NCBI GenBank assembly: GCA_016214025.1
Contig: JACRPH010000010.1
Span: 1-38,484, forward strand
Direction of reading: 5' to 3'
DNA length: 38,484 nucleotides
From: Candidatus Woesearchaeota archaeon
GTDB taxonomy: Archaea > Nanobdellota > Nanobdellia > Woesearchaeales > GW2011-AR9
The position numbers were made by a program, and so were the translations under genes. Within the stretch, counting starts at the first letter, position 1. The number at the start of each line of letters is the position of its first letter. Positions 4,316-36,352 of this stretch are shown one piece after another. Below the pieces are notes generated by a model. It was given only the letters and a program-made list of their open reading frames with translations, made no database searches and had not been told where the DNA came from.

Positions 4316-4891
4316 TCAACTCTCTTTCTCCCTCTGCTTCGTCTTCATCAGCGTCTGCAGCTGCATCGCCGATGTATACGCAGAAACCACTCCTACTGTT
4401 AGATACACTAAATCAAGTGGCAGATTTAAAGCTGGCAGGATAGCCAATAATATAATCAATGTCAACCGGCAGAATAATATTGGATACTCTAACTTGGATA
4501 AAAGATAAACTACATGAGATAATAAATACAGCCCAATTACTATCAGCACATAATAATCATCCACCTGAAGCCACAGTTTTACCAGAAACAATAAAGAAAC
4601 GACTAAGTTATCCGTAACATAATCATAATACTTCCCAAATTTAGTAACCATAGATACTCGAGCAATTACCCCGTCCATCCCATCGGCAATAAGATGTAAT
4701 ATCGCAAACAGGATAAACAGAGCCTGGTTTTCAAACAGGAAATATACTGAAATAATGCCTAATATCAAAGAGATGGTAGTAGCTATATTGGCCGATATTC
4801 CTAACTTGAGGCAGAACCACCCCGCTTTATTGAGATTTCGACTTCTGAACTCCCTGAACCTTTCCATAACCTCATGGATTAATTTATGCAT
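4316..4891 (-). CDS. CDP-alcohol phosphatidyltransferase family protein
   Basis: ORF 191 aa; multi-TM with DGMDGVIARVSMVTKFGKYYDYVTDN, matching DGxxARxxxxxxxxGxxxDxxxD. Confidence 0.88.
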   Translation of the reverse strand: MHKLIHEVMERFREFRSRNLNKAGWFCLKLGISANIATTISLILGIISVYFLFENQALFILFAILHLIADGMDGVIARVSMVTKFGKYYDYVTDNLVVSLLFLVKLWLQVDDYYVLIVIGLYLLSHVVYLLSKLEYPILFCRLTLIILLAILPALNLPLDLVYLTVGVVSAYTSAMQLQTLMKTKQREKES

Positions 4892-4929
4892 GGAAACATA
4901 TATAAAAGAGATAGTATAAAAACGTTCCT

Positions 4930-5589
4930 ATGCAGCGACTATTCATTGAAACTAAATATGAGGGTAAATTAACAATTCCAAGAAGCCTAATCAAACCGCT
5001 TCCTTCTAAAATAGTCTTAGCCCTTCCCGTCCAATTCTATGATTTTATCAGCAGCATCCAGCAGCAATTAGAAACTGCCGGAAAGAAAGTTACTCTATTT
5101 AAAGGAGTCCATGGGAAATATCCCGGACAGGTCCTAGGATGCGATGTATTCAAATTTTCCGGAGATTATGATGCTTTTTTATATATCGGAGATGGAAAGT
5201 TTCATCCTACTGCTTTATTATACGAAAACAAAAAATCAGTATTCTGTTTCAATCCATTTACTTCAAAATTAGAAATTCTAACGCCGGAATACTTGCAGAA
5301 AGTCCTACAACGACGTACCGGCCAGTTGTCCAAGTTTCTTTCAGCAGATACAGTTGGCATATTAATAACGACTAAGCTGGGGCAGAATCAGTCGAAGAAG
5401 GCGGAAGAGCTGAGGGAAAAGCTGGAGAGAGCAGGAAAAAAAGTATTTGTGTTCATAGCTGAAGAAATAAACTTAACCCAATTGGAAAATTTCAACTTTA
5501 TCGACGTGTGGGTCAATACTGCTTGTCCTAGAATTGTGGAAGACTTTAAGTGCTTGAACGTGGGTGATTTGAAAGAAATTGGATTATAA
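4930..5589 (+). CDS. dph2: Dph2-like 2-(3-amino-3-carboxypropyl)histidine synthase, lacking the N-terminal domain
   Basis: GQVLGCD (middle-domain Cys), DAFLYIGDGKFHPTAL, VGILITTKLGQ and VNTACPRI (third-domain Cys); only 219 aa. Confidence 0.85.
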   Translation: MQRLFIETKYEGKLTIPRSLIKPLPSKIVLALPVQFYDFISSIQQQLETAGKKVTLFKGVHGKYPGQVLGCDVFKFSGDYDAFLYIGDGKFHPTALLYENKKSVFCFNPFTSKLEILTPEYLQKVLQRRTGQLSKFLSADTVGILITTKLGQNQSKKAEELREKLERAGKKVFVFIAEEINLTQLENFNFIDVWVNTACPRIVEDFKCLNVGDLKEIGL

Positions 5590-5694
5590 AAATCCGTCAC
5601 CGTCGTTAAAATGGAAACATTTATAAACAACCTCAATTTCCTAATAGACGGAAAGGATGTTCTTTTCCATAAAAAACAAAGAGGGGTGAATTAA

Positions 5695-5943
5695 ATGGCT
5701 GAAGTAATCGCAAAAGTAGGAGTTAAGAAGCAGAAAGGATGGCTCTATTTCTTGGATAAGGCTGGAAATGTGGCCAGAGCTTTGATGAGTAGAGCTGGCC
5801 GAAAGAAAGGCAAGACCAAGAAAGAAGTCGTAGCTAAAGTCGGCGTGAAGAAGCAGGGCGGATATCTGTACTTCATTGATGGCAAAGGCAACGTCTGCCG
5901 GGCTAAGATGGCTCGTGGAAGAGCTAAGAAAAAGAAGAGATAA
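5695..5943 (+). CDS. Small basic protein built of two tandem ~40-aa repeats
   Basis: EV(I/V)AKVGVKKQxGxLYFxDxxGNVxRAxMxR appears twice; strong RBS (gaggggtga) upstream and oligo-T downstream. Confidence 0.85.
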   Translation: MAEVIAKVGVKKQKGWLYFLDKAGNVARALMSRAGRKKGKTKKEVVAKVGVKKQGGYLYFIDGKGNVCRAKMARGRAKKKKR

Positions 5944-5944
5944 A

Positions 5945-5980
5945 TTCTTTAGTTTTTTTTTGTTTTGCTTTTTAATTCTT
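5945..5980 (+). terminator. Oligo-T archaeal-type transcription terminator
   Basis: ttctttagtttttttttgttttgctttttaatt directly after the small basic protein gene. Confidence 0.6.
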
Positions 5981-6029
5981 ATTCTTTTAGTTCATATAAC
6001 TTTATAAAATAGTTGTACATCTAGCAATT

Positions 6030-6905
6030 ATGGCTGATGAAACCAAACCGACGCAGAAAGAAGTATCTCCTTTAAACAGAATTAACGAACTCTCTGCCCA
6101 GGAATGGCTGAAGTTTACCAAAACCTGGTTTATCCATAATCCTCCGCCTAGAAAGAAAGATGAAATTCTGCATCCGGCTAAATATCCGGAAAAGATGATA
6201 GAAGAGTTTGTGCGCTTCTTTACCAAAACCGGCGGAGTAGTGTTCGACCCCTTTTTGGGCACAGGTAGCACTTTAGTAGCTTGTTATAATTGCCAGAGAA
6301 ACGGGCTCGGAATAGAACTGCAGGAGAAATATGCTAAGATTGCCGAAGAGAGAGTTAAGAAGCTGGACTCACAGTATCAATTAAGTGAAGCCGGAGGAAA
6401 ACGCTTATGCAAGCAGGTAGTTATCAAAGGAGATTCTTCGCAAGTGAATAAGTTATGGGAAGATTTTTCTTTGCCGCAGATAGATTTTGTAATTACTTCT
6501 CCCCCTTACGGGATGATGCTGAATAAGAAAGGCCTTGCTTCAAAAGAAAGGGAAGAAGAGGGATTGGATACTAATTACAGCGAAGCTCAGGAGGATTTAG
6601 GAAATGCAGAGAGTTACGAGCAGTTCTTATCGCGGTTGGTAGAAATTTTTATTAAAATAAAGCCACTGCTGAAGGAAGATGCGTATTTAGTGGTGATTTT
6701 GCAGAATTACATGAACAAAGGGGATTACGTTACTCTTGCTTGGGACTTTGCCCAAGAGATGAAGAAGCATTATCAGCTGCGTGGGGAAAGGATTTGGGCC
6801 CAAGACAATAAAACTTTATATCCTTACGGATATCGCTACAGTTTTGTGCCCAATGTGCACCATCATTATTGCTTAATATTCAAGAACGTAAAAAAGCAAC
6901 CTTAA
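6030..6905 (+). CDS. Site-specific DNA methyltransferase (amino-MTase, N4-C/N6-A)
   Basis: FDPFLGTGSTLVA (motif I/FGG-type) followed by FVITSPPYGMML (motif IV TSPPY). Confidence 0.9.
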   Translation: MADETKPTQKEVSPLNRINELSAQEWLKFTKTWFIHNPPPRKKDEILHPAKYPEKMIEEFVRFFTKTGGVVFDPFLGTGSTLVACYNCQRNGLGIELQEKYAKIAEERVKKLDSQYQLSEAGGKRLCKQVVIKGDSSQVNKLWEDFSLPQIDFVITSPPYGMMLNKKGLASKEREEEGLDTNYSEAQEDLGNAESYEQFLSRLVEIFIKIKPLLKEDAYLVVILQNYMNKGDYVTLAWDFAQEMKKHYQLRGERIWAQDNKTLYPYGYRYSFVPNVHHHYCLIFKNVKKQP

Positions 6906-30014: not shown

Positions 30015-30437
30015 TTACTCTTTTTGTTGAATTTCCCAATATCCGCCTTTCTTTGGGCTTCCTTTAAATTCTATTCTGCTTTCATCTTTAAGTTGTTTAA
30101 TCCAGCGTTCAATGGTTCGAGTAGTAACTCCAAAAGCGCCCGCACATTGAGCTGCTTTTTGCCCCGGATGAGATTTGATATGTTCAAAGAGAGCTTCTAC
30201 TCCGACATTTACTCCGACATTTACTCCGACATTTACTCCGACATTTACTCCCTCACTTTTTTCCATAGCAGTTTTATCAAAAAAGAACTCAATTCGGTAA
30301 TAGTCCAAACCTGTGAAAACAACTGGTGCTTTTGAATAATAAGATTTCCACCCTTTAAAGATTGCCACTTCATTTCCTTTACGATTAGTATAATCACGAT
30401 GGCATAACGAATTAACTAATGCTTCTGTTTTTATCAT
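30015..30437 (-). CDS. C-terminal portion of an AlbA_2/Schlafen-type transcriptional regulator (N-terminally truncated)
   Basis: EALVNSLCHRDYTNRKGNEVAIF (post-AlbA conserved segment), GVNV repeat linker, HTH FGVTTRTIERWIKQLKDESRIEFKGSPKKGGYW. Confidence 0.7.
   Translation of the reverse strand: MIKTEALVNSLCHRDYTNRKGNEVAIFKGWKSYYSKAPVVFTGLDYYRIEFFFDKTAMEKSEGVNVGVNVGVNVGVNVGVEALFEHIKSHPGQKAAQCAGAFGVTTRTIERWIKQLKDESRIEFKGSPKKGGYWEIQQKE
30199..30246. repeat. Four perfect tandem copies of a 12-bp unit (actccgacattt)
   Basis: Direct reading; encodes (GVNV)n on the minus strand. Confidence 0.95.
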
Positions 30438-30528: not shown

Positions 30529-31428
30529 TTATTTTAATATTAGAGCCGGATTATTCTGTTTCAGCAAACCGTAAAGGTATTTCAATGCGCCGGTGGAAAT
30601 AGTTCTCCGGTTTATCCTCATAGTTATACCAGTTCTTTCCTCGTCGTACTCTTTCATCATTCCACGAATCTCTCTATTGCCGGTCTGCTGTACATAATTC
30701 AATACTTTTTCCGGGGAGAATAATTCTTTCAGGGTGGGCAAATTATGGCAAGTGTCTTCCTGGGTGAGTCCACCAGTTAATCTCTCCGTCTTCGCTTCAA
30801 ATAATACTGGGGAGCCACTTTGGGCTTCTATCGTTGCCAGATATTCTTTGAACTGGACTCCATTAGCCAGGAAGTAGGAGAAAAACCCCAAGTCAGGAAT
30901 ATACATAAATTCTCGAGAGCAGTGGTGTAGCGCGGTGATAGACTTCCGTCCGGCTTCCAGTTCAAGCTCCAATGAGGCTAACATCGAATGGTTGAGGTGG
31001 GGATTGTAAGCATCAAGTCCATCTTTAGGCAGAAGTTCTTTGAGATCGGTTCCTTCCAGCAATGCTCCCAACGCGGGAGATGTCAACTTTAACGCAGAAA
31101 TATACTCTTCTGATTTAAGTGGTTTTACAGTTATTATTAATCCGTCCTCCCCATTACCACCTTGCTCAAGCTTAAACCGCATAAATCCAGCGTAAGGAAG
31201 AACAGGTTCAAGATCAAAACGAGGAGCCAGGATGGAAAGATTAGCTTTCAGGTATTGGTGCATTTGCGTTAAGTAATTGGTAAAAACATCCTGCAGTGAA
31301 ATAGGTTCTTTGATTCCAGCAGGAGCAGTAGAACTAATTGCAGCACCGCTTACTGCTGTCTCTAGTGTATCCGGCTTCGCTCCGGTATCAGTAAAAGTTA
31401 CGTCCTCGCCTTCAATTACTTCTGGCAT
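30529..31428 (-). CDS. Hypothetical protein carrying conserved N-terminal leader (protein B)
   Basis: ORF 299 aa; leader MPEVIEGEDVTFTDTGAKPDTLETAVSGA shared with 35681..36352. Confidence 0.85.
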   Translation of the reverse strand: MPEVIEGEDVTFTDTGAKPDTLETAVSGAAISSTAPAGIKEPISLQDVFTNYLTQMHQYLKANLSILAPRFDLEPVLPYAGFMRFKLEQGGNGEDGLIITVKPLKSEEYISALKLTSPALGALLEGTDLKELLPKDGLDAYNPHLNHSMLASLELELEAGRKSITALHHCSREFMYIPDLGFFSYFLANGVQFKEYLATIEAQSGSPVLFEAKTERLTGGLTQEDTCHNLPTLKELFSPEKVLNYVQQTGNREIRGMMKEYDEERTGITMRINRRTISTGALKYLYGLLKQNNPALILK

Positions 31429-31451
31429 GTTGGTTTTTCCCTCTCATCATT

Positions 31452-33701
31452 TTACATCATTTCGCTAAACTTCTTTCTATCGGTATATTCTATCAGCACT
31501 TCTAATGCCTGCGACTGAATTTGCTGGATAGTAACCCCCATATGGCATTTTACGTTTGGCCGTTGAGATTCTAATTGCTTTATCCATCCTCCGAAGCTGC
31601 TGCTGGAGCCGACTTCAAAGTAGATGAAGCTGGTGTCGGGGTCTCGGGTAGCTTGCTCAATCTCATTGTACGTGCCCTGAGCAGAACTTGATTCTAAGCC
31701 GCCGTCAGTTACCCATACATGCACCGTTTTTCCGGGCTTGAGCAAGGGTTTTATCTGTTTGAATGTATCCGAACTGTAAACCGTTCCTCCGCCTTGGAAG
31801 CCGGTAAGCACCTGCTTAGTACTGTTGTTAGGAGTGGCATACAGATGTTTTAACTCCGAAGGCTGGCTTAATATAGTTCCGTTGCTGAAATTAGCCGCGA
31901 GGATATTGACGTCTTTGCTCATTTCCACTGCCGGCTTCATCAGCGCTTTAAGCATTCCATAACAGACGTGCATTAAAGTGTCGTAAGGAGAGCCTTTTCC
32001 TACATAATTAGCCCCACCCATACTTATAGATGAATCTACATGAAATACTATATTAGCTGGCAAGTCAATACCCGTCGGGTCAAAACGAAAATCTTTCAAT
32101 TCAGTTTCTTTCCATTCATATATATCATATTTCCATTCATAGTCAGAGATTTGAAATAACTGAGTGATGCCGGTTTCCTGCTGGAAGCGGAGAATACGGT
32201 CCAAATCCAAGTTTATCATCTCTTCCGGCTTAAGATGATAACTTGCCACTAGCACGGGAAGTTTGATGTTTCCCAATTCTACGCTTACTGCTTCCTGGTT
32301 GGGCGAGCGTACCGGAATCTCTTTGACATTACGTTTGTAATATTCATCCCGAGCCAGGTTGGACAGCTTTTTTTCTTTTTGTGAAGTCCCTCCCGGTCCG
32401 CCAGTTGAGCCGCCCGGATTATTAGCTACATTAGATAATAATTGATTAGCTGCATTCTGTCCCAGCACATCAGCAAGATTGGTCAACGCCTGCTCGGTAT
32501 TTCCACCGCTTTGAGCAGGAGAAGAAGCCTGGTCGCCTGGCTTGCCACCTGGTTGGGGTTGCCCACTGCCGGGTTGGCCTGCTCCCTGGCCACTTCCTTG
32601 CCCGCTTCCTTCTCCGCTTTCTCCAATATGAGTGCCATGCCTTTTTTCTTCTTTCTGTAATGAGATGTAAGGGGCAAGCGGCTGGATGAACCCTTCAATA
32701 GCTCCATAACGAGTGTTTTTGTCTAGCAGCAGCGGAATTATCTGATGAATTAATTTCTCATGAAGCTGGTCGCCTTCAGGTGTGGCATATTTCTGGTAAA
32801 AATTATCTATGTCTCTTTCAAACTCGCTTTTATTGAGCCCGGCAAATTTCAGCTGATCCGGTGTAAGTTCTTTGAGCAGGCTTTTCAACGCTGAAGTTAT
32901 TACTTCCTGCTCTTTTCCGCGCATTTTTTGGTGAAGCTGGTTTTTAAAATAGTCAAATACTGCTCCCCGCGTTTCTTTCTTTTGGCAGAATAATAAAGCA
33001 TAAATCCCCCGGGTTAAGGGATAATATAAAGAATCGTGCTCTTCTTTCTTTAACTCTCCTTCTACTACATCAAATACGGTAATAACTCCATCGGGAAGCT
33101 CAGGAGCTTGCGGCAATTCTAAATTTTGGGCTTGGAGTGCTGGTTTTAATCTCTGTTCCAAGCGGTTATGATAATGCGAGAGATAAAAGAAGCTTCCATC
33201 ATCTAATAAGTCCCACGCAGAATTGCGGGAGTGACCCACTTTGTTTAAAATGTCTGCATCCGGTGCTGATGGAGTAACTTTCTTAATCCCATCATGCAGC
33301 GCTTTGTCTACCAGCTTTTCATCGTCTTTGCTGTCGGGGCAGTAAATGTGATGCAATACTTCATGGAAATACAGATAAGTGAAATTATCATGATGCAATC
33401 TTCTTACAAATTCTTCCGCGTCAAAGCTGGGTAATCCGTATGCTTGGGAGAATAGGGCTTTAACTTTCCCGTTAAAGGCTTTGTCTACCAAGTCCGGCTT
33501 GAATACATCCATGTGCACTTCATGGCGGCCTTCCGCGTCTCGTTCTGGTTTGGTGTAGAACTGCCAGTGGCGCTGAGCCTTAGGGTCGGGCTTGGCGCGG
33601 ATAACAGTTGTGTCTGAGAATAAAGGGAATTCAGTCTGGATTACTTGCCTCCAAGTAGTTTCTGCTTGTACCAGTTTCTCTACAACGTGTTCAAGAGCCA
33701 T
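31452..33701 (-). CDS. DUF2201/VWA-like protein with N-terminal HExxH motif and MIDAS-type VWA domain
   Basis: LYFHEVLHHIYCPDSKDDEKLVDKAL, Gly/Gln/Pro-rich linker, NIVFHVDSSISMGG (DxSxS), VHVWVTDGG. Confidence 0.85.
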   Translation of the reverse strand: MALEHVVEKLVQAETTWRQVIQTEFPLFSDTTVIRAKPDPKAQRHWQFYTKPERDAEGRHEVHMDVFKPDLVDKAFNGKVKALFSQAYGLPSFDAEEFVRRLHHDNFTYLYFHEVLHHIYCPDSKDDEKLVDKALHDGIKKVTPSAPDADILNKVGHSRNSAWDLLDDGSFFYLSHYHNRLEQRLKPALQAQNLELPQAPELPDGVITVFDVVEGELKKEEHDSLYYPLTRGIYALLFCQKKETRGAVFDYFKNQLHQKMRGKEQEVITSALKSLLKELTPDQLKFAGLNKSEFERDIDNFYQKYATPEGDQLHEKLIHQIIPLLLDKNTRYGAIEGFIQPLAPYISLQKEEKRHGTHIGESGEGSGQGSGQGAGQPGSGQPQPGGKPGDQASSPAQSGGNTEQALTNLADVLGQNAANQLLSNVANNPGGSTGGPGGTSQKEKKLSNLARDEYYKRNVKEIPVRSPNQEAVSVELGNIKLPVLVASYHLKPEEMINLDLDRILRFQQETGITQLFQISDYEWKYDIYEWKETELKDFRFDPTGIDLPANIVFHVDSSISMGGANYVGKGSPYDTLMHVCYGMLKALMKPAVEMSKDVNILAANFSNGTILSQPSELKHLYATPNNSTKQVLTGFQGGGTVYSSDTFKQIKPLLKPGKTVHVWVTDGGLESSSAQGTYNEIEQATRDPDTSFIYFEVGSSSSFGGWIKQLESQRPNVKCHMGVTIQQIQSQALEVLIEYTDRKKFSEMM

Positions 33702-33730
33702 GTTAAATGATGTGATTAATATTTATTCTG

Positions 33731-33860
33731 TATGTGCATAGCATCTTCAAAATCCTCGCTGGTGTAATCGCAAGAGCGACATCCCCGTAGGGGGCAAGTC
33801 CCCCTGTCGCTCTCGAAAGTGTAATCGAATGGATTTTGACCTTATGATGCTATGCACATA
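33731..33860. repeat. 130-bp nested imperfect inverted repeat between the MoxR and VWA genes
   Basis: tatgtgcatagcat/atgctatgcacata ends; central gagcgaca/tgtcgctc with ggggg/ccccc core. Confidence 0.85.
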
Positions 33861-33879
33861 ACTTTTAATTGTTATACAT

Positions 33880-35619
33880 TTACTCCACTGCCAATACTCT
33901 GGGCAGCCGCTGTAAGTAGATGTCATCAATTGTTCCTCTCATTCTTACTTCGCGGTAAAACCCTTTTAGGGTGGACAGCTCACTTTTTGCCGTTAACTTT
34001 TGCTCCAGCTCCGTTTTATACTGGTCGGCAAATCCGGCTAAAGTGGCTAAATCAGCAATGTATCGGGCTAAAAGAGGCTTTCTAATTTCATCTCCAACAC
34101 TCTGCCGTTTGAGGAGGGCTACACTGGTGGCCAAGTCTTCGACGAACGTTGCTACCTTATCCTTTTTTGCTTTACCCGTTTCCTGAAGGGCATGGGTTAA
34201 AGCGAGAGCATAGATGGATAGATTAGGATTGTCCGGAGTAAACTTATTTTCCTCAGTGGAACCTTCCAGCCCCAACTTTCTCTTCCAGGTGTATCCAATC
34301 TTTTCCGCGAAGCCTTCTACGGACTTAGGAAGAGCAGCATAAGCTTGTACCGGGGTTGGGGAATCTAACGCTTGTTTGTGTTTTCTGATGGTAGAAACCG
34401 CATCAGCTAGTTTTCTTACTTTAGTGATATCTCTGGTGATCACTTCTTCTTCAAATGATTGCACTATCTCTCTTACTTTTTCCAGAATATTAGCTGTGGG
34501 CGTCAAAGCCTGCGGATATTCAAAGTCCACGTTGTATGCTCTGAGGGCTTCTTTCCATTGTTGTGATAATCCCCGTTCCTGCTCGTACACTTTTTCTAAG
34601 TCAGGAGAAGTTAATAATAACATCCCATCCAAAAATTCTACGGCCGAACGGATATTGGCCTGCTCGGTCTTTTTTGGATTGGTAGTGAAAGCATATACGT
34701 TGAGCCAATCTGCATTAACATTGGTAAGCTTGTCTGGCGAGACTCCGGCATATTGGGCCAGTAATGAAGTGTATCGGTCCATGAACTTTTTATGCTGCCC
34801 ATTACCGCTGCTTAGGAATACCACGGAAGCACCGATGCTGCCCATAGGGTTAGGAACGTTTAAAGTTAGGTTGCGATTGGACATGGCCGCATCATTTCGG
34901 GTGGTTTTATTGTACTTGGCATCAGTAGTAGCGGGCGGGTTTTGTGCTGATACTACCTGTACGCCTTTGCGGCTTTCCCGGTCTAAAGTCCATGCTCCGT
35001 TGGTGTAATGAGGTACGGGAAGCCCTAATTCGCCGCGTTCTCCGGTGGAGAGAGCTATCTGACCATCCTGGATTTGCAGTACTTGGTTAGAATCCCCGCG
35101 ATTAACTTCGTCGATGAATAATAAGGCAATTCTTTCCAGCTCATCTTTTCTTAGAAATATCTTAACCACGCCGTTTTCGATTCTTCCTTCTACATACGGC
35201 TGCTGCACATTAGACATGGTTTGGTTTAATCTTAATACCCGGTAATTTTCGGGAGCGAATAAGGTCTTGCCCAGTTTTTCAGTGGTGAAAGTTTTTCCAA
35301 TTCCAGTTTTTCCCTCCCACAACAATGGCATCTTCTCGCGGAAAGTGGCGGCTAACAGCATATCCAGCATGCTTACATCTAAAGCTTGGGCATTGGGAAT
35401 AGCGGCTCTGCCTTCTAAGCTTTGAAATTGCAGATGGTGCGAAGTTTCGTCATAGAGCAAGCGGTATAGCGGAGTGGGCATGCATTCTTCGCTCATCACG
35501 GAGCGGGCTGCCTGCACTAACGCCAGCATACTGGCAGTGTGAATTTTATTTTCTATCTGCTCGTCGGTTACGCCTTTACGTTTAAGTTCAGCGGTAATGG
35601 TTTCTAAGGTTGGTATCAT
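33880..35619 (-). CDS. MoxR-like AAA ATPase
   Basis: Walker A LLWEGKTGIGKTFTTEKLG, Walker B IALLFIDEVNRGD, sensor VQVVSAQNPP. Confidence 0.88.
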   Translation of the reverse strand: MIPTLETITAELKRKGVTDEQIENKIHTASMLALVQAARSVMSEECMPTPLYRLLYDETSHHLQFQSLEGRAAIPNAQALDVSMLDMLLAATFREKMPLLWEGKTGIGKTFTTEKLGKTLFAPENYRVLRLNQTMSNVQQPYVEGRIENGVVKIFLRKDELERIALLFIDEVNRGDSNQVLQIQDGQIALSTGERGELGLPVPHYTNGAWTLDRESRKGVQVVSAQNPPATTDAKYNKTTRNDAAMSNRNLTLNVPNPMGSIGASVVFLSSGNGQHKKFMDRYTSLLAQYAGVSPDKLTNVNADWLNVYAFTTNPKKTEQANIRSAVEFLDGMLLLTSPDLEKVYEQERGLSQQWKEALRAYNVDFEYPQALTPTANILEKVREIVQSFEEEVITRDITKVRKLADAVSTIRKHKQALDSPTPVQAYAALPKSVEGFAEKIGYTWKRKLGLEGSTEENKFTPDNPNLSIYALALTHALQETGKAKKDKVATFVEDLATSVALLKRQSVGDEIRKPLLARYIADLATLAGFADQYKTELEQKLTAKSELSTLKGFYREVRMRGTIDDIYLQRLPRVLAVE

Positions 35620-35680
35620 GGTGGTTTAGTCCTCATTTGTTTTTATTTCAATCGTTTTGGCCATGTGTTATCTATATCTC

Positions 35681-36352
35681 TTAAGTCTTAACCGGAATCC
35701 TCTGCAGTTCCCGCAGGATGGGAATAAGGTTCTTCTCTTTTATCTGCTGGGCGTATTTAACGACGTACCTCCCTAGTTTTTCCTTTTCGTGGTTGGTAGC
35801 GGTAACAATTGCTAGTGCATTAAAATTCACCCCGGCAAAGAGAAGGGTACTCTTACCATCTCCAAGGAAATAATTCGTTGACCGTAGTTGTGATAGCGCT
35901 TGGAGTTCCGGGAATAACGCAGTTACTTCATCAGAAACTTTCCCATTAGTTACTCCTGCTTTTATTGCATCTCCAATATCAGTCTCAGCGATATAATCTC
36001 CGTGGGTGGACTGAAGGCATCTAATCAAACTTTCTGGTGTAAAGTTGCCTAAACTAAAGTGAGCTTTATAATTTGAACTATCTGGTTGATATTTTAGTTG
36101 TAAGAAGTTAACTACAATCTCTTTGTAACAATCTTCAATCGGAGGATGTTTACCTTCATAAAGAGTACTACACAAACTTTTGTATGCCTCCCACACTCTT
36201 TCAGTAGCTCCAGGATTTAAAAGTCCGCCACCCACAATTTTGCTGCCACTTCCGGCACTTCCTTCTGCACCACTCACTGCCTGCTCTAAGCTATCCGGTC
36301 TAGCACCAGTCTCGGTAAACGTTACGTTCTCGTCTTCAATTACTCCTGGCAT
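35681..36352 (-). CDS. Hypothetical protein carrying conserved N-terminal leader (protein A)
   Basis: ORF 223 aa; leader MPGVIEDENVTFTETGARPDSLEQAVSGA shared with 30529..31428. Confidence 0.85.
   Translation of the reverse strand: MPGVIEDENVTFTETGARPDSLEQAVSGAEGSAGSGSKIVGGGLLNPGATERVWEAYKSLCSTLYEGKHPPIEDCYKEIVVNFLQLKYQPDSSNYKAHFSLGNFTPESLIRCLQSTHGDYIAETDIGDAIKAGVTNGKVSDEVTALFPELQALSQLRSTNYFLGDGKSTLLFAGVNFNALAIVTATNHEKEKLGRYVVKYAQQIKEKNLIPILRELQRIPVKT

Follow-up and report, generated by a model that had tools for sequence, protein, structure and literature searches.

Locus-matched N-terminal leaders on unrelated proteins of archaeal MoxR/VWA modules: a candidate docking tag

A 38,484-nucleotide stretch of DNA from a Candidatus Woesearchaeota archaeon (contig JACRPH010000010.1 of assembly GCA_016214025.1; the whole stretch is called the window here) raises the question of why two unrelated proteins, encoded on either side of a gene pair for a MoxR-type AAA+ ATPase and a protein with a von Willebrand factor A (VWA) domain, should begin with nearly the same 29 residues. 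The host is a Woesearchaeota-type archaeon with a genome of 1.43 Mb that is 97% complete. All four are minus-strand genes, arranged A - MoxR - VWA - B, and when the open reading frame (ORF) coordinates were rechecked they agreed in every respect with a first-pass annotation that had been made from the sequence alone. Protein A (35681..36352, 223 aa) consists of a leader, a small-residue linker and a body, and protein B (30529..31428, 299 aa) likewise of leader, linker and body, with the leaders occupying residues 1-29 of each (36266..36352 in A and 31342..31428 in B); between them are encoded MoxR (33880..35619, 579 aa) and the VWA protein (31452..33701, 749 aa). The best explanation overall, in which we place moderate confidence, is that the leader serves as a docking, or address, tag that would let a dedicated MoxR AAA+/HExxH-VWA machine, related to known conflict systems, recognise the client proteins that belong to it.

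The leaders of A and B, MPGVIEDENVTFTETGARPDSLEQAVSGA and MPEVIEGEDVTFTDTGAKPDTLETAVSGA, are identical at 22 of 29 residues (76%) and at 67 of 87 nucleotides (77%), with proportions of differing silent and replacement sites (pS and pN, Nei-Gojobori) of 0.56 and 0.128, respectively; change at silent sites is thus about fourfold that at replacement sites. Given that silent change is near saturation while the peptide has been held, the window leader appears to be under purifying selection, as the first-pass annotation had proposed from a nucleotide identity of about 78% with many synonymous changes. The shuffle z-score is 19.2 for the pair of leaders vs -0.1 for the bodies. Full-length paralogy of A and B, which would make the leader a matter of ordinary homology, was considered and rejected, the bodies giving no BLAST match and a profile-profile (hhalign) probability of 1.9%. 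Occurrence of the leader away from the module was also looked for, and none was found: a search of the whole genome with the A leader returned A itself, B (E 2.9e-9) and nothing else, the window-type leader was not found in the genomes of 95 relatives, and neither MoxR nor the VWA protein contains a copy.

Relatives of the module were found with the VWA protein, and then with alignments of VWA (A1) and of MoxR (A2, in which the window MoxR is included); alignment queries were needed, the single window MoxR having matched no genome or viral contig in the locus searches. About 25 related MoxR+VWA loci were recovered, their hosts being metagenome-assembled genomes of Woesearchaeota, Pacearchaeota and Nanoarchaeota, a contig of Doudnabacteria (candidate phyla radiation), contigs of Lokiarchaeota and Sigynarchaeum (Asgard archaea), and one IMG/VR contig (L160), which carries a relative of the clade II MoxR described below. 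In a tree of 22 VWA proteins, two clades of 11 each are separated with 100/100 support: clade I, which is divergent and includes the window, and clade II, which holds the modules linked to diversity-generating retroelements (DGRs) together with those of Asgard archaea. The window and most modules of the divergent clade sit among chromosomal genes.

In at least 17 loci the same locus-specific leader begins two to four neighbouring proteins. Examples are KLLVE(S/D)(E/D)YT(D/E)FGDTP in L020, VI-x-P-(T/G/K)-x-x-E-(L/I/V)-E in L021, (R/K)TI(R/K)PDxxxWxK(I/V)LGK in L082 and, on three proteins of L077, MTKPSVVPPEDVVFEEG; the leaders are N-terminal and are followed by flexible linkers rich in P, G and S, and three modules (L022, L083 and L089) have one leader-bearing client only. 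Six loci (the window, L020, L021, L077 and Asgard L105 and L106) have a leader common to proteins without detectable similarity of their bodies, with shuffle z-scores of 7-19 for the leader and about 0 for the body. In the set of A- and B-type proteins, leaders that belong to different body families of one locus have a normalised similarity of 0.52-0.62, whereas leaders of one body family from different loci reach 0.09-0.20, a value equal to that of unrelated pairs, and therefore the leader goes with the locus and not with the body. Leader similarity also follows VWA identity over 21 loci (Mantel rho 0.65, 0/5000 permutations), a correlation that is mainly an effect of clade and that is also present within clade II (rho 0.65, 3/5000 permutations). 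Between loci, clade I leaders can be aligned only through their position and a loose hydrophobic-hydrophobic-x-P/E/G pattern, and we do not take the homology of all leaders as proven. At L077 the leaders are 94-96% identical at the DNA level ahead of unrelated bodies, which indicates that recent conversion or cassette exchange occurs.

In clade II the leader is conserved from locus to locus, with the consensus M-x-K-I-I-P-R-x-L-I-K-H-L-E-W-x-P-G-Q. When a 22-position model of this leader was run on 20 module-bearing genomes (E up to 0.1), all 24 matches fell inside modules, and on 343 genomes of the phylum (E up to 0.001) 12 of 13 did so, the thirteenth being a marginal match (E 6e-4) in a 61-aa frame. 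This leader has been retained ahead of unrelated folds in hosts as distant as Nanoarchaeota and Asgard archaea. At Asgard loci it starts a protein of ALCSHxGxLYDAG repeats (a beta-propeller by eye, which Pfam does not confirm) and a leucine-rich-repeat (LRR) protein (LRR_8 E 4e-25), and at DPANN loci proteins with bodies like that of AvpA (PDB 5IOO, C-type-lectin fold; E 3.9e-14 with a profile and 5.7e-5 with a single protein). Reverse transcriptase (RT) genes adjoin several of the DPANN clients (RVT_1 E 2e-26 and 4e-20 in the two genes that were scanned), template repeat/variable repeat (TR/VR) pairs are present in seven loci (L025, L026, L028, L074, L076, L078 and L094), and 181 of 190 template/variable mismatches, summed over 14 comparisons, are at template adenines. 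The clade II DGRs are genuine. The window was itself considered as a DGR and rejected, its genome having no RVT_1 match.

At L094 (6200-7486) the RT ORF runs in frame through the template repeat (LYRNRNLNLNARNRNLANSNENGR), and the template could be readable as part of the RT frame. DGR-linked modules adjoin portal/head-morphogenesis genes (portal E 5e-31 in L160 and 4e-30 in L074; a weaker, head-protein-like match only near the module of L025), and some modules probably reside in archaeal proviruses. A contig binned as Cloacimonadota and a Woesearchaeota contig of a sister sample encode identical client proteins (L099, L074), and the assignment to Cloacimonadota is probably a binning error.

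The two proteins of the putative machine have conserved active-site motifs. MoxR has intact Walker motifs in sequence and alignment (Walker A GKTGIGKT, Walker B LLFIDEVNRGD), and the model of the VWA protein (mean predicted local distance difference test score, pLDDT, 83.6) has an N-terminal helical domain with an HExxH motif (residues 113-117; 33351..33365, minus strand), a disordered G/Q-rich linker at about residues 353-399, and a C-terminal VWA domain with a metal-ion-dependent adhesion site (MIDAS) DxSxS motif (residues 556-560, partner D666; 32022..32036, minus strand). When the PDB was searched with this model, the C-terminal domain matched VWA structures that include von Willebrand factor A1 and the MIDAS domain of midasin; nothing lies behind it, so no effector or effector-associated domain (EAD) is fused to the VWA protein. 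The HExxH motif is present in 21/21 family members, the window included, that retain the N-terminal region, and together with downstream N/D residues it is invariant or nearly so across the family, while the MIDAS DxSxS is kept in most relatives. The VWA protein had no Pfam match at E up to 1 and its family none at E up to 0.01, no peptidase model among them; the PDB fold search recovered the VWA part alone, with no known-peptidase match for the HExxH domain, and a comparison with viral models gave one weak SprT-like match. With neither Pfam nor the PDB fold search giving a peptidase match, it is from the HExxH motif that we infer a metallopeptidase-like N-terminal domain.

The bodies of A and B have relatives at other loci. 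That of A has distant relatives among the accessory proteins of L077, L022 and L089 (hhalign probability 90, E 1.6e-6), a family link that consists of one profile match, and that of B is related to L021_2, L021_4 and L077_3 (BLAST E 6e-7 to 4e-4). Neither protein had a relevant Pfam match at E up to 1, neither family had a match in the PDB or is AvpA-like, and an AlphaFold2 model of B built from 4 sequences was unusable (pLDDT 38). Searches of Pfam, PHROGs, PADLOC and NCBIfam gave no useful family for A, B or the VWA protein, and weak AAA matches for MoxR; no PADLOC model matched the VWA protein or the clients. A and B remain orphans and, their bodies being of no known fold or function, they can be called sensors by analogy only.

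At L020 one of the leader-bearing proteins (4785-5552 and 5549-6346) has a long glycine-rich hydrophobic stretch, possibly a membrane segment, and the other a C-terminus that is lectin-like by eye (FGVGAGDG...AFGVKVV); neither assignment has database support, and the two are a possible effector/sensor pair. In the sub-branch of L024, L080 and L090 the module encodes one leader-bearing protein (FFKDD leader) and one leaderless accessory protein, and is adjoined, in conserved order, by an ATP-pyrophosphatase gene (QueC-like by eye) and a carbohydrate-kinase-like gene.

It is reasonable to propose how such a system might operate. The machine would be encoded together with its clients, with a tag particular to each locus and common to all or most of its clients, and the bodies behind the flexible linker would be interchangeable, whether retroelement-diversified C-type-lectin domains of the AvpA type, repeat or LRR domains, or orphan domains such as those of A and B. 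The VWA protein, through its MIDAS and/or its metallopeptidase-like N-terminal domain, would most likely hold the tag, by analogy with NorD, which holds its target via the VWA MIDAS site while NorQ hydrolyses ATP (PMC9976466), and MoxR may spend ATP on remodelling, releasing or presenting the client, as NorQ/NorD and CbbQ/CbbO do with their targets. That neither MoxR nor the VWA protein has a copy of the leader argues for a relation of tag and receptor, and not for assembly of like with like. Given that the clients of known fold are ligand-binding scaffolds of the sensor kind, recognition of a non-self or partner molecule would be the most likely role. The comparison among loci strongly supports the proposal of the first-pass annotation that the leader is a modular recognition element for MoxR/VWA clients; its analogy with the cargo leaders of contractile injection systems was abandoned, a sheath gene being present in 0/22 module genomes. 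In its wider form, which we put forward only tentatively, the proposal is of a previously undescribed, tag-addressed archaeal recognition system, in which a MoxR/metallopeptidase-like-VWA machine would take interchangeable ligand-binding clients via a locus-matched peptide that is replaced between loci, the clients of one clade being hypermutated by DGRs.

Several observations weigh against docking as the function of the leader. AvpA seems to be without an N-terminal leader (the alignment starts at residue 27), accessory proteins without the leader occur at L024, L080 and L090, and the window genome has no RT detectable with RVT_1. Leader and VWA similarity are uncorrelated within clade I (rho 0.09), where divergence of the leaders is too great for comparison. 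In clade II, several pairs of clients are paralogous over their full length; that they share a leader is ordinary and not independent evidence. The bodies of A and B have no known fold or function.

Other functions for the leader were considered alongside docking. It might be a processing propeptide, with the HExxH domain cutting the leader or linker following a signal driven by MoxR, so that the client is activated or released. The near-invariance of the HExxH and downstream N/D residues, and the position of the leaders at the N-terminus ahead of flexible linkers, fit such a role, as does the coupling of peptide-processing metallopeptidases to some MoxR-vWA systems (PMC7159879), but the missing Pfam peptidase match, a fold search that gave only the VWA part in the PDB and the one weak match among viral models, and the lack of a common cleavage sequence across leaders make it unlikely. 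We think it slightly less likely still that the leader is a homotypic assembly motif, through which sensor and effector clients would meet while MoxR/VWA acts elsewhere. EADs do this in ternary systems (PMC7159879), two to four proteins per locus have matching, locus-specific leaders, and L020 pairs a possible lectin-like protein with a possible membrane effector; against this, the amyloid motifs of NLR proteins also sit in the NTPase whereas no copy of the leader occurs in either the NTPase or the VWA protein, the conserved leader K-I-I-P-R-x-L-I-K-H-L-E-W is charged, proline-containing and probably helical, and some modules have a single leader-bearing client.

Improbable, in our estimation, is that the leaders have no recognition role, and that clients arose as tandem duplicates whose leaders were homogenised by gene conversion as their bodies diverged or were swapped. 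Many clade II pairs are indeed full-length paralogues, and the leader DNA of L077 is nearly identical before unrelated bodies, but in the window the peptide is kept at near-saturated pS, and the clade II leader has been retained before unrelated folds over the range from Nanoarchaeota to Asgard archaea and is restricted to modules. We regard as very improbable a viral or proviral adsorption or tail-type system, whose clients would be DGR-diversified receptor-binding proteins assembled by MoxR/VWA: phage DGRs do diversify tail fibres, and the modules of L160, L074 and probably L025 adjoin portal/head genes, but the chromosomal setting of the window and most divergent-clade modules, the missing sheath gene, and the absence of any relative of the clade II MoxR from 50,697 published phage records all speak against it.

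How, then, does a docking leader compare with what is known? The nearest systems are the vWA-MoxR ternary conflict systems of VMAP, iSTAND and FtsH types (Kaur et al. 2020, PMC7159879), in many of which the vWA protein is itself fused to DGR-diversified lectin-like domains; DGR loci with MoxR have also been described in multicellular bacteria (Dore et al. 2024, PMC10907252). The modules are like them in having a two-gene core of MoxR ATPase and vWA protein with variable third components and, in many cases, DGR-diversified C-type-lectin-like (FGS) ligand-binding domains. They are unlike them in that the effector or ligand-binding domains are separate proteins with a short matched N-terminal tag and not vWA-fused, in the HExxH domain of the vWA protein, and in their hosts, which are DPANN and Asgard archaea where the survey of ternary systems covered mainly multicellular bacteria. 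No VMAP, iSTAND or FtsH component was found for A or B (Pfam, E up to 1) or beside the relatives (Pfam models and inspection only). Because these components are lacking and the clients are separate and tagged, we do not file the modules as members, near as they are to the ternary systems, and they are best read as an archaeal relative of them with a presumed conflict role.

The clade II bodies are like AvpA and the variable proteins of archaeal DGRs (Handa et al. 2016, PMC5006420; PMC4372165) in matching 5IOO and in being accompanied by an RT and adenine-biased TR/VR pairs, but those clients have an N-terminal leader and lie in a MoxR/VWA operon, of which a text search of Paul et al. 2015 (PMC4372165) gave no mention. 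NorQ/NorD, CbbQ/CbbO and RavA/ViaA likewise join a MoxR ring to a VWA adaptor, theirs contacting the target by MIDAS (PMC9976466); each has one fixed metabolic target, whereas here several unrelated clients bear a common appended tag. EADs and NLR amyloid motifs are also short or small N-terminal modules common to different proteins of one locus, but the leader is not recognised by Pfam. Proteins of the DUF2201/COG3864 type have an HExxH N-terminal domain followed by a VWA domain, and their gene adjoins MoxR. The window protein has the same layout, from N-terminal HExxH to C-terminal VWA domain with MIDAS, but is divergent in sequence. We found no description of such a leader in the full-text literature, a coverage that excludes subscription papers such as Paul et al. 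2017.

In clade 5 archaea the targets of DGRs typically have no transmembrane or other conserved domain that can be recognised (Roux et al. 2021, PMC8144416), and AvpA has been described as a protein of unknown function (PMC5006420). The leader and the MoxR/VWA operon give several of these targets a specific and testable cellular partner, which fills this gap for the loci seen here; if the tag-addressed system is real, it would provide many target proteins of archaeal DGRs with the cellular partner that they have lacked so far. It would also suggest a simple route by which a single ATP-driven machine could handle many binding domains that are unrelated to each other, lectin-type and LRR domains among them, in hosts ranging from DPANN to Asgard archaea, and the matched-tag pattern predicts that swapping leaders would re-address clients.

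Two further features of the window were noted. The 178-nt gap between the MoxR and VWA genes contains a palindromic element of about 130 nt (33730..33860, minus strand; fold z -6.9), with about 20 genomic copies at roughly 70-87% identity; it looks like a MITE-type (miniature inverted-repeat transposable element) or other repeated hairpin and is probably unrelated to the function of the module. A structured RNA at the leader was considered and rejected, the window having no Rfam match and the intergenic hairpin being this repeated element. Farther along, a perfect 12-nt tandem repeat of 4.5 copies (30198-30251), which codes for GVNV repeats within a helix-turn-helix ORF (30015-30437), is possibly a tract of variable length.

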